This document shows positions 132 to 10,906 of a DNA stretch of 11,571 nt, piece by piece. Each line of letters starts with the position of its first letter. The stretch's first letter is position 1. A program made the translations under genes and the position numbers. The notes below the pieces were generated by a model, which saw nothing but the letters and a program-made list of their open reading frames with translations, was not told the origin of the DNA and ran no database searches. Location of the stretch: assembly GCA_013414745.1 (NCBI GenBank), contig CP058707.1, forward strand, positions 1,604,000 through 1,615,570. The letters are read 5' to 3'. Origin of the DNA: Bacteroidota bacterium (lineage in GTDB: Bacteria > Bacteroidota > Bacteroidia > Chitinophagales > Chitinophagaceae).

Positions 132-690
132 CTAAGGTGTCACACTGCCAATAAAACTATTGTTGTTTGTTTCCCACAACAAGAAGTCCAAACCATCCAC
201 AATTCCATCACCGTTTAAATCGGTGGCGAGATAGCCCGAACCAAAACTATTATTATCTACTTCCCAGTCGTTGTAATCGAGGCCATCGATGACGCCGTCC
301 TGATTGATGTCGCCACTATACAACCCAAAAACACCGGGTTCCAACTGGGGCATATTCTGACCGTAAGCCTGAACGATCCTGAATGAAAAGCATAGTTTGT
401 AATAGGTGCTTGTACCTGTACTGGCGCAGCACTCCAGGTTTCAATCGCATTGCGGTGCTTCACCACAAGGTAATAAAACCCGTTCAACTGAGGCATCCGG
501 CATGGAATTGACCCATCGGTATACATCAAACAGCTGGAGGAATAAACAGTGGTAAAATTAATCGGATCGCGCAATTGCACTTCGATGGAATCACTAATAT
601 CCGGACAGGTTTGTATGCCCTGATTTAATAAAGTAGTTGTTTGCGTTTCGTTGCCGGTATAATACCCTTCCACAAAGCTTTCAGGTTTAA
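132..690 (-). other. C-terminal module of gene A with two EF-hand/dockerin-like loops
   Basis: After repair of breaks near 675 and 378 the module runs from [13 protein letters not shown], through [15 protein letters not shown], and [18 protein letters not shown], to [20 protein letters not shown] and [20 protein letters not shown], ending FIGSVTP. Both loops match DxNxDGxxDxxD, so two Ca2+ sites are likely. The same module ends gene B. In Bacteroidota it recurs at the extreme C-terminus of secreted proteins. A role in export or anchoring is inference. Confidence 0.8.
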
Positions 691-3179
691 TTGCATAAAT
701 GACGTGCCAACACCCTCGCCTTGTACGGTATAGTTAAACTCATATTCATCACAATCATTGTTGAAGATAGTGACGACGGCCTGTTTGACCCTATCCCTGA
801 AGGCGTAAAATGCAGATCAAAAGATGCCGAAGAGTTGGGTGCGATACTGAGAGGCAGGGTCAGGCCCGACCAACTAAAGTCTGTGGCATCTGCGCCGGAA
901 ATTGAAATCGCATTCACAATTAGCGGCATAAAGTCGAGGTTTTTTATCGTCATCTGATTCGTGCGTGTCTCCATGACTGTGCCTGCAAAAAGTTCGTTCC
1001 GTTATGACCTGTCGGGCTGGGCACTAACGAATTATCTGTGATCGGATTGCATTTTGATTCCAATGCAATTTCAGAAGGGGTATCGTCAAAATTGCCATTG
1101 CAGTTTTCGTCGGTGCCGTTACAAGGAATTTCTGGCTTGCCCGGATGTATGGTTGAATCGGCATCATTGCAATCTCCCGCCTGAGTGACGTATCCGGGTG
1201 GCGGGTAACAGGTATGTACACTCCAGTAAACGTACCATATCCATCCTGATCGGCATCCGGATAATAGTAGTTGGCAAACAAACTGGTCGTCACATTTACG
1301 GGATACAATTGGGCCTGGCAACTTGTATTTAATTGATCTCGTACTTTCACCGAATGAAATCCTGAATTCACGCCATTAAACACCGGACTGCTCTGATAGG
1401 CCCCGTTGTCCAGGGCATATTGTAAACTACCTGTGCAATAATAACAGGTTGCGTGCACAGTCAAACCCGCATCCGGCGTACTACTGCAACTGGATGGGGT
1501 GATTTGAATCGAATCAATCGTCACCAGGCAATTGGGTTCGTACAAACACAAGGTAAAATCCTCCCCATCGGGTACTCCATAATCCCATACCCTGAGGTAA
1601 ATCAGTTGACCTGCCAGGGCGACGTTATTGAGAATATATCCCGATTGAAATTGAGAACAGTTGAGCTGAGTAAAACTTCCGCAGCTACCGGAATACAAGG
1701 CAAACTGAGGTTGCATCAACCCGATATTCTGTACACCGATACCCAGTAGTCCAGACATTGGCATAGTGCATTTAAACCAAACGTCTGCACCGGTAAAGCC
1801 TCCACAAGTAGGATTGGCAGCCGTCGACAAGGGATCGCGGGTGGCCCCTTGCGTAGTAAAGGTGTCGTAGTTGCACAACACAGGCACATTTAGCAATTGG
1901 GCGTTTGAGCAGGAATCATTCGACGGCGTATTCGGTTCCCAGGCACAGATACTATAGTTGATGGCTTCAGATGAAGAACCGTAGGTATAAATTCGTAAAT
2001 ACAAGGTTTGATTCGCTAAATTCTGATTGTTGATATTAATGAAATTAAGCGTTAGAGAAGCACAGGCCAATTCGGTCATAGCGCCACAGGTACCACTATA
2101 TAAAGTCATCCCGGAATAATAAGAAGATTGTCGTTCGAGGCGCAAATGTCCTGATGCCGGCATTTGTAATGTATACCACTGATCGGTACCCTGGTAAGCC
2201 CCACAACTCGGATTGGGTGAGATACTGGTAGGTTCTGGGGTACATCCTTCGTTGTTTGAATTAATCATTGTGCACGTGGTACCCACCGGAATTGGAATGG
2301 CATTCGCACAAAAATCATTGGCGGGCGTATTGGGCTCCCAGGCACACAAGGTAAACCGACCCGTTGCCGGAGAGCCACCGTAACTATACACACGGACATA
2401 AATCCACTGGCCTGCCAATGCCGGATTGTGAATATTGTACGCATCTTCGTTTAAGGTGATACATTTTAGTTTGGTGAAGGACCCGCAGGAACCTGTTAAA
2501 AATTCGAGGCTATTGATAAATCCATTCAGCCCCACCGATTCAAATCGCAATTTTCCGGAAGCCGGCACTTGTGCTTTAAACCAGATATCGTACCCTGCAT
2601 AAGCCCCGCAGGTGGGGTTACTGGCTTCCGCCGGATTGGAAGTGCACCCGTAATTGGCAAATGTATCTACGTTGCAAGAACTCCCTACACTCAGCGTCTG
2701 TGCCTGGATACATGAATCGTTGCTTGGGGTAGCGGGCTCCCAGGCACAGATATTAAAATTACCCGTTTGGAAATTCAGGGCCCGAAATACACGAATGTAA
2801 AAACTTGTCCGGCTGTGAGTGAATTGTTGAGTGTAAATGAACCATCTCCGGTGCGGCAATACACCGAATTTAGACTACCGCATGTGCCACTGTACACCTG
2901 CCAACCAGGTTGAACGCTGTTTCAAAATCAATTTCCAGTTTCCCGGAGGAAGGTACTGTTGTCTTTAACCAGACATCCTCCGGTGTACGAACCACAGGTA
3001 GGATTAGGCACACCCGTGCTGTTGGTTGCTCCGATGTGGGTATAATTGACCATGGAACATTGGGTTCCCGGAGTTAACACGGTGGCCGTTGAACAATCAT
3101 CGCCGGCTAAAATGGGTTGAGCAAACAGGACCTGATGGCCCGTAAGCATGAAAGAAAGAAATAAAATAAAAGAGCGCAT
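132..3179 (-). CDS. Secreted multidomain surface protein (gene A), about 1,018 aa, split by 8 apparent frame breaks
   Basis: The start at 3179 gives a signal peptide ([20 protein letters not shown], then Q). The protein ends GSVTP-TAG at 132. Order after frame repair: four cysteine-containing beta-sandwich modules (3101-1536), a SprB-like module (about 1530-1295), a MopE-type metal-binding motif (1269-1082), a choice-of-anchor-D (HYDIN-like) domain (about 1020-703), and a C-terminal module ending in two calcium-binding-type loops (about 690-132). The longest unbroken stretch is about 2820-1215. Frame breaks lie near 2977 (net -2 or +1), 2903, 2799-2803 (run of 5 needs 6), 1216, 995, 784-786, 674-676 and 378; adding nine bases makes 1,019 codons exactly. 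It is secreted and probably surface-displayed; no catalytic domain is visible. No canonical type IX C-terminal sorting domain is seen. The upstream gap (3180-3399) shows no convincing promoter. Function is inferred to be adhesion or matrix; the ligand is unknown. Confidence 0.85.
703..1020 (-). other. Choice-of-anchor D (HYDIN/ASPM-like Ig) domain in gene A
   Basis: After repair of breaks near 995 and 785 the reading gives [23 protein letters not shown], a [12 protein letters not shown] stretch, [20 protein letters not shown], then [16 protein letters not shown]. This order (TIxNxGxxPL, ISG.D..DF, I.PGxSxxFxxxFxPxxxGxxxAxVxIxNND, Y.F...G.G) is diagnostic for the choice-of-anchor-D beta-sandwich. 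It is a structural spacer in surface proteins and here precedes the C-terminal module. Confidence 0.8.
1082..1269 (-). other. MopE-type metal-binding motif in gene A
   Basis: Reads [16 protein letters not shown], then after a one-base break [20 protein letters not shown], then [18 protein letters not shown]. The succession D-x-D-x-D-G-x-G ... DCNDxDxxxxPG ... E-x-C-N-G-x-D-(E/D)-N-C-x-G is the signature of the putative metal-binding (MopE/thrombospondin type 3-like) region common in secreted Bacteroidota proteins. The acidic residues are likely Ca2+ ligands. Which metal is bound here cannot be told. Confidence 0.75.
1536..3101 (-). repeat. Four tandem cysteine-containing beta-sandwich modules in gene A
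   Basis: The modules begin near 3101, 2721, 2319 and 1920, each about 380-400 bp (about 130 aa). The shared pattern is N/GDxCxxAxxL...C, then NP[TS]CGxYxGxDxW, PxSGxLxxx, LYSGxCGxxxxLxC, L-A-G-Q-x-x-Y-L-R-V-x-x-Y, and a closing [11 protein letters not shown]. The plan resembles PPC-like (pre-peptidase C-terminal-like) jelly-roll modules found in Bacteroidota secreted proteins. The paired conserved cysteines suggest disulphides in the exported protein. Repeat 1 is the most broken by indels, but its motifs are all present across frames. Confidence 0.8.
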
Positions 3180-3340
3180 GGTTGGTTGGTTTGATGCCGA
3201 GTACCTATTCAACTTAAACCTGACCGGAAGCGCCCCAAGCTTTCATTTGAAATTTAACTTCTTCGTTAACCAGTATAGGTCGTGATGGTACCCGCTGAAC
3301 GAATATACTGAACTCTGCTCCAAAATAAAACCCTATCCAT

Positions 3341-9612: not shown

Positions 9613-9663
9613 GGAAATGATTTTTAACATGTTACCAAATCAATTGTGTACACTGCCTTCGGA

Positions 9664-10906
9664 TTACTTATCGTAACCGATGGCTTTCACATTGATGGTA
9701 CCATTTACCATAACCCGACGGGGTGCTGTGACCAAAATCACACGGGCCCAATCATTTCCTGTAATCGGAAAGAAATTATCTTGTGTATAGGAACCTCCGT
9801 AACATCCGGCATCATTCCGGGTGAGGTTAATGTCGGAATAGGCTGAATCCGGCGTACCTCCGTTAATGGTGTTGGAGAGTGCATTGGTGATTAAGCCATT
9901 GGCAGTATTAATTGTTGTATTTGTAGGGGCCACATTGGTGCCATCGTTGGTAAATCCACCAAAACTCGCATTCGATACATAGTTATAATGGATGTCATAA
10001 TTCCCGGTACTGGTAATTAATCCGCCACCATAGAAAGATGCTACGATCAGATTATTCATGATTTCTGTTACAGAAGACGCTCCGGTATTAATGGTGATGC
10101 CGTAGTAAATGGAATAGGTTTGTTTAATAATCGTATTGTTATTAATGACATTGGTTCCCGCCGCAGAATTCCGGCCATTCTGAACATAGATGCCAAAATT
10201 TGTTGCATTGCCGGGATAGTCTAAACGAATAAAATTATTCTGGATACTGAAATGTTGATTGGTATTGTTCCAGTTCACGCCCCCATTGTTCCCCGCAGTA
10301 TAATAATATACTCTGTTTCCGATAATCATGGTGGTATCCCTAAATTATTGGTTGATGCATCGTTGTTGCAGGTGATGGAGGATGTGATGTGGTTTCCGAT
10401 CACCTTTCCATATTTAAATACAACACCGGAAGAGATAAAGTTCGCAGCGGCGGTGACATTATAATTATCGTGGTTAAAATTCAAGGAACCACTCATGATA
10501 GAATCGTTCAGAATATTAATAGAACTTCGGGCTCCCGCCGGCGCATTCCCGGAAGTGGCAATACCCCGACAGCAATTTCATTCCAATAATTGTGATGCTG
10601 GATGCGGCTGTTGTTGGGGCAATCGTGATGCTTGGTGCATCAATGGTATAAAAGCCCCTTCATTGGCCGATAAAATCTGTAAACTCTTCGTAATGGTAAT
10701 GGCAGTTTCGCTGTACGATGCTCCATTGGCCTGTGGATACACGATGATACGATCACCCGCACTGGCTGCTGCAATAGCTGTATTTAAACTGGCATAGGTT
10801 CCGCCGGTACCACCAGGCGCCACAACAAGATCAGCTGCCTTTACTTGAATTGAAACGAACAAGGCAACGACAACAGATGCGATACCGAAAAGATTGAGAT
10901 TTTCAT
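9664..10906 (-). CDS. Secreted right-handed parallel beta-helix protein (gene C), about 415 aa, split by 5 apparent frame breaks
   Basis: Restoring one A to the run after the ATG at 10906 gives MKNLNLFGIASVVVALFVSI then QVKA, a clear signal peptide, followed by ADLVVAPGGTGGTYASLNTA. This is the usual start of Bacteroidota beta-helix proteins: pectate-lyase-like coils beginning with a GTYASLNxAIxAAxxGDxIxV strand. The middle is rich in Asn-x-Ile repeats such as NNTIIKQTYSIYYGITI and IMNNLIVASFYGGG, typical of beta-helix coils. The end keeps D-A-G-C-Y-G-G-S-Y-T, A-R-V and INVKAIGYDK-TAA. Breaks lie at 10900-10903, 10650-10653, 10581-10582, 10564-10567 and 10338-10340. All fit a single lost base, and adding five gives exactly 416 codons. 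No catalytic lyase residues are recognised. It could bind or cleave polysaccharide or be purely structural. It heads the transcription unit with gene B. Confidence 0.85.

Follow-up and report, generated by a model that had tools for sequence, protein, structure and literature searches.

Frame breaks in three adjacent genes of a Bacteroidota genome are best explained as nanopore consensus errors left behind by protein-guided correction

Introduction

The closest described counterparts of the sequence reported here are nanopore metagenome assemblies corrected with MEGAN-LR, a procedure described as putting in an N or NN wherever a DIAMOND alignment to NCBI-nr changes frame, and the assembled contigs of an earlier data set are given there as carrying 6 frame shifts per kilobase (kb) (Arumugam 2019; PMC6469205). 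The subject of the present analysis is a stretch of 11,571 bases (the window), at positions 1604000-1615570 of the single contig (4,268,816 bases) of the genome of a sludge bacterium (Bacteroidota), in which three minus-strand genes, here called A, B and C, are each split by repeated changes of reading frame. Table 1 of a later study lists PAO1-tig00000003 (4,268,816 bp, g__OLB11, CP058707.1), and the text of that study describes MinION reads, assembly with Canu, export of the sequences via the MEGAN option 'Export Frame-Shift Corrected Reads', and a completeness of this contig that rose from 64.34 uncorrected to 92.82 after frame-shift correction (Arumugam 2021; PMC7966762). The authors state that a substantial share of genes was still inadequately corrected and name few close references as a possible cause (PMC7966762). 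Illumina data for these reactor communities, from identical or closely timed DNA extractions, are reported as well, and the raw PAO1-tig00000003 is stated to be provided (PMC7966762). The breaks in genes A, B and C are almost certainly Oxford Nanopore consensus errors in three otherwise ordinary genes, left behind by this kind of protein-guided correction, and thus an artefact of a known kind.

Results

Breaks were called by protein-to-DNA alignment that allows frame changes, with intact orthologues of the same genus as references; the counts exclude candidates below 120 summed bits, those with a post-alignment score below 150 and any place that overlapped a better candidate. This frameshift-aware alignment, which the original prediction had proposed as its check, placed 16 frame changes in the window, all of them net losses (13 of one base and 3 of two; Table 1), and confirms the prediction that the roughly ten apparent gene fragments are three genes split by loss of bases. 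One place in gene B, near 3930, is scored as a one-base loss with the orthologues from genomes G005 and G007 and as a two-base gain with that from G008. A seventeenth change is implied near 10900, where the only ATG (10906) is off-frame from a signal-peptide-like stretch; it is visible in no homologue alignment. The missing bases number 9 in gene C, 6 in gene B and 4 in gene A, or 5 in gene A and 20 in total when the place near 10900 is included, which agrees with the 9, 6 and 5 predicted before. The count of 18 breaks given earlier becomes 17 here, probably since the place near 10566 is scored as one loss of two bases. Eight of the nine homopolymer places named earlier lie within 3 bases of an aligned break and the ninth is that near 10900, and the two places set apart as two-base changes (2977 and 9507-9513) are both losses of two bases here. 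One part of the prediction fails: the divisibility by three of the repaired gene lengths, put forward as an independent check, follows automatically from a repair that is made so as to preserve the frame, and provides no independent evidence.

Table 1. Positions in the window of the three genes, their frame breaks and the features discussed with them
Feature	Position	Strand	Remarks
Gene A	9667..10906	-	probably secreted protein, ~420 amino acids (aa); no Pfam/NCBIfam family; start codon 10906
Gene A breaks	near 10654, 10566, 10339	-	alignment over 9667-10904
Gene B	3403..9612	-	surface protein, ~2070 aa; SprB repeats, dockerin-like C-terminus; start codon 9612
Gene B breaks	near 9513, 8614, 4559, ~3930-3933, 3727	-	alignment over 3403-9603
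Break-free core of gene B	4559..8614	-	4.06 kb; ~3.6 events (breaks or N runs) per aligned kb elsewhere
Gene C	135..3179	-	surface protein; GBD_T9SS_assoc repeats, dockerin-like C-terminus; start codon 3179
Gene C breaks	near 2978, 2922, 2806, 1223, 978, 784, 671, 372	-	alignment over 135-3107
Window as N-free gap	1..11571	.	flanking N runs at contig 1603998-1603999 and 1615571

The marks of correction are abundant around these genes and absent within them. Twenty stretches of 20 kb (400 kb, outside the window) hold 830 N runs, 719 single, 111 double and none longer, and 334 of the 830 adjoin a run of at least four identical bases, a share to be compared with about 9% for randomly chosen positions. 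N or NN runs are present in all the stretches sampled from this genome; no N runs occur in 17 stretches from three relatives. The window is without any N and is the longest of the 150 N-free gaps in its 91.6-kb neighbourhood, and given that it fits exactly between two N runs, its borders seem to have been set by Ns. The original prediction, which took the sequence for uncorrected long-read consensus, is right as to base loss in long reads and needs refining as to the assembly, which was partly corrected with N and NN and of which the window is an uncorrected remainder.

Residual breaks and Ns avoid each other. By distance to an N, residual breaks occur at 0.26 per kb (below 100 bases), 0.12 (100-300), 1.71 (300-1000), 2.32 (1-3 kb) and, in the only 2.7 kb lying beyond 3 kb, 4.39 per kb, with about 0.2 per kb for all sequence up to 300 bases from an N. 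The same avoidance is seen between genes: among the 72 genes (of 76) with at least 150 aligned codons, the three of the window included, 44 have Ns but no breaks, 17 have breaks but no Ns, 7 have both and 4 are free of either (Spearman -0.60, p 3e-8). Places that need an N stand to those that need NN as 13:3 in the window and 65:14 among residual breaks elsewhere, and single to double N runs as 719:111, with no significant difference between these spectra (Fisher p 0.46 and 0.30). Avoidance of this kind, together with similar spectra, is what a single error process would leave behind if its errors had been mended in only part of the genes.

The same procedure applied to the DNA of G008, with the proteins of four other genomes, gave no break in 33 genes (36.7 kb), which shows that the breaks of the window are neither chance nor noise of the method. 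Leaving aside short search loci, the analysis covered about 11.5% of the genome, namely the window and 24 further stretches (20 kb each), and the stretches of relatives that served as references were a non-random set, taken around the window orthologues and the markers rpoB, ribosomal L2 and gyrB/parE. Three of the 24 stretches (L018, L020 and L023) have no aligned gene; breaks or Ns are found in 20 of the remaining 21, among them the stretches around rpoB and ribosomal L2, and the sole exception (L014) has one short gene. In all, 73 other genes of this genome (84.2 aligned kb) carry 79 residual breaks (0.94 per kb) and 227 N runs (2.70 per kb). As scored, all 16 changes in the window are losses, and elsewhere there are 70 losses and 9 gains.

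Many of the breaks lie at homopolymers. In the window a run of at least four identical bases stands within 6 bases of 7 of the 16 breaks, whereas 14.6% of positions drawn at random from these genes have one (for mean run length, p is about 0.009). For the 79 breaks elsewhere the figures are 59.5% and 24.6%, with p at about 5e-5, the lower limit of the test. Surface adhesins are frequently phase-variable, and it might be argued from the breaks at homopolymers that these genes vary in phase through slipped-strand repeats. However, this is extremely improbable for several reasons: no tandem repeats were found in the window; it has no run of eight or more bases (0 per kb) and only about two that reach 6-7; the 16 breaks are separate events in three genes, five of them with no run longer than 2 within 6 bases; and the stretches around housekeeping genes show the same type of break.

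A second alternative, that the three genes are genuine pseudogenes decaying through small deletions, would account for many frame breaks across adjacent genes and for an in-frame stop in gene B (3442-3444), and bacterial gene decay commonly shows a deletion bias. It is nevertheless very improbable. Decay would also give many stops by substitution, and the window has a single one in 3424 aligned codons, 13 or 14 residues from the end, a frequency to be set beside 4 in 28065 codons of other genes of this genome and 1 in 12226 of the G008 control. Differences from G008 at codon positions 1, 2 and 3 amount to 0.29/0.18/0.61, 0.32/0.26/0.61 and 0.42/0.35/0.62 in the three genes, so that each has retained the third-position excess expected under coding constraint; the orthologues of the same genus are intact, and breaks or Ns extend to nearly every other stretch with an aligned gene, including the surroundings of rpoB and L2. 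The original prediction that these genes are not decaying is upheld on all these grounds.

The intactness of the orthologues is best seen from the open reading frames (ORFs). On the minus strand of the window two ORFs are long (1385 and 616 aa) and another reaches 403 aa; the others are short and abut or overlap in different frames. In genomes of the same genus each gene is a single ORF, of 426 aa in G008 and 418 aa in G005 for gene A, of 2080 aa in G008, 2078 aa in G005 and 2259 aa in G007 for gene B, and of 1158 aa in G008 for gene C. Programmed ribosomal frameshifting or a recoded frame, for which the breaks themselves speak and nothing further, is for this reason vanishingly improbable, as the orthologues are single-frame throughout and up to eight breaks fall in one gene. 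The longest ORF of the window found no relative in a scan of genome contigs; its G008 orthologue used as the query led to two loci, JAEUVD010000008.1 (a metagenome-assembled genome of Chitinophagaceae) and CAIQUX010000134.1.

By sequence, the products of genes A, B and C resemble the usual secreted or surface proteins of the phylum. SprB (PF13573; cut-off 28) scores 88.1 bits in the window ORF of gene B and 104.3 bits in the G008 orthologue, matched in 5 and 4 stretches respectively, and the dockerin-like C-terminus of this orthologue scores slightly under its cut-off. The MopE-type metal-binding motif and the choice-of-anchor D domain of gene C are named on the 1158-aa protein of G008, which has five GBD_T9SS_assoc stretches besides these two and a dockerin-like C-terminus. 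No Pfam or NCBIfam family was matched at E 0.01 on the 426-aa protein of G008, and no C-terminal family of the type IX secretion system (T9SS) was matched in the same databases, at the same threshold, on the three G008 orthologues.

The dockerin-I-like C-terminal domains lie at 132-440 and 3403-3783 of the window. Matches to such domains, which are borne by many large surface proteins, number 42 in G008, 11 in this genome and 0 above threshold in G005, the proteins of which also align to the dockerin-like C-termini of the window genes. The median length of the ORFs that carry a match is 142 aa in this genome (n=11) and 1317.5 aa in G008 (n=42), which indicates that genes of this kind are generally broken in this assembly. 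Cohesin (PF00963) has no match in this genome, G005 or G008, and the dockerin-like domain may serve to sort or anchor the protein by its C-terminus instead of belonging to a cellulosome. Divergent from gene A, the start of an ORF at 11357-11571 (+), presumably response-regulator-like, continues into the N run that borders the window.

Besides homopolymers, GATC is conspicuous among the short motifs close to N runs. Of 1070 N runs, taken from 24 stretches (20 kb each; L005-L024 and L054-L057), 96 lie near GATC where 43.3 are expected from a background of all coding and non-coding sequence (p 3.5e-12), by far the strongest signal of 96 palindromic motifs; the next, TCGA, has 68 against 44.1 (p 5e-4). 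With a wider placement the expectation for GATC rises to 52.6, and most of the surplus falls at a distance of 4-8 bases from the N (58 against 24.7). Breaks touch GATC at 2 of the 16 places in the window (random positions: 3.5%) and at 8 of the 79 elsewhere (random positions: 4.5%); the two in the window, near 3727 and 372, are both without a homopolymer and are too few to carry weight alone. Errors of basecalling at a methylated motif would give such an enrichment, and older nanopore basecalling would drop bases there. This raises the possibility, put forward tentatively and held to be somewhat less than even, that the error sites of the genome carry a methylome signal, that of methylated GATC. 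If so, the places at which deposited assemblies were frame-corrected with the help of proteins could serve to recover the motifs that an uncultured bacterium methylates.

A Dam-family D12 adenine methylase is encoded at C1:3547316-3548074 (L073), directly adjoining a homologue of the EcoRV-family restriction endonuclease, and the two are predicted from sequence to form an EcoRV-like restriction-modification pair. This methylase was considered as the cause of the GATC signal and rejected: given its neighbour, its likelier target is GATATC, the recognition site of EcoRV, and this motif shows no enrichment at N runs (6 against 4.0). The other methylase matches in the genome, 3 to PF01555 and 2 to PF00145, include none assigned to GATC.

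Discussion

A single course of events would account for these observations. The nanopore consensus would have lost mostly single bases, often at homopolymers; after assembly, frameshift-aware DIAMOND alignment against NCBI-nr, as implemented in MEGAN-LR, would have placed an N or NN at each frame shift; and genes with no usable protein alignment, such as lineage-specific surface proteins, would have received no insertion, so that their raw errors stayed. Genes A, B and C would then presumably have lacked usable alignments in NCBI-nr at the time of correction.

Several points weigh against this explanation. The first is the break-free core of gene B. A Poisson fit on the other genes of the genome, which counts N runs as events and the expectation of which would be inflated by any over-insertion of Ns, expects 20.5 events in gene B, which has 5; genes A and C agree with the fit (3 against 3.9 and 8 against 10.0). 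The longest event-free interval in the other aligned genes is 1568 bases (n=379 intervals), a comparison of limited reach, given that these intervals stop at gene ends and the longest other aligned gene, of 3798 bases, does not attain the 4056 bases of the core. Homopolymers are sparse in the core; as a full explanation this was rejected, the fit still expecting the number of events given above. No direct repeats of at least 40 bases were found in the core, and choice of the window for its lack of N may have introduced a bias towards clean sequence. The second point is the in-frame stop in gene B, which is not a frame change: it precedes the end of all three orthologues by 13 or 14 residues, with homology going on beyond it to 3403, and may stem from an erroneous substitution, be a true lesion or mark a genuinely shorter end of the gene. 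Third, a subset of the genomes of the study is described as further refined with short-read contigs (PMC7966762), and this genome may be among them. Finally, completeness and contamination were estimated here at 93.91 and 4.56, as compared with the 92.82 and 0.25 given for the contig in PMC7966762, a gap that is taken to reflect another estimator.

Given that residual nanopore error remains the preferred reading, short 'proteins', pseudogene counts and claims of gene loss drawn from this genome may be products of sequencing error. Within the assembly, N and NN runs mark the corrected places, and long N-free coding stretches mark persisting raw errors. Extrapolated to the chromosome from 16 evenly spaced stretches, the numbers would be roughly 9,000 for N runs and at most some 4,800 for uncorrected breaks, the latter a rough upper estimate, as all bases are treated as coding and the rates come from a non-random set of genes. 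The sister genomes of the same study perhaps share the need for caution.

Two described systems invite comparison. With the SprB-repeat surface proteins of Bacteroidota, gene B shares an SprB match well above the cut-off, and gene C alongside it has GBD_T9SS_assoc domains; the difference lies in the C-termini, which here are dockerin-like, with no match to a T9SS C-terminal family on the G008 orthologues in Pfam or NCBIfam at E 0.01. With the nanopore metagenome assemblies corrected by MEGAN-LR, as far as these are described in PMC6469205 and PMC7966762, the present genome shares both the method and the N and NN marks, and there is no difference in kind; what is added here to the published account is that, place by place, Ns and residual breaks of this genome avoid each other.

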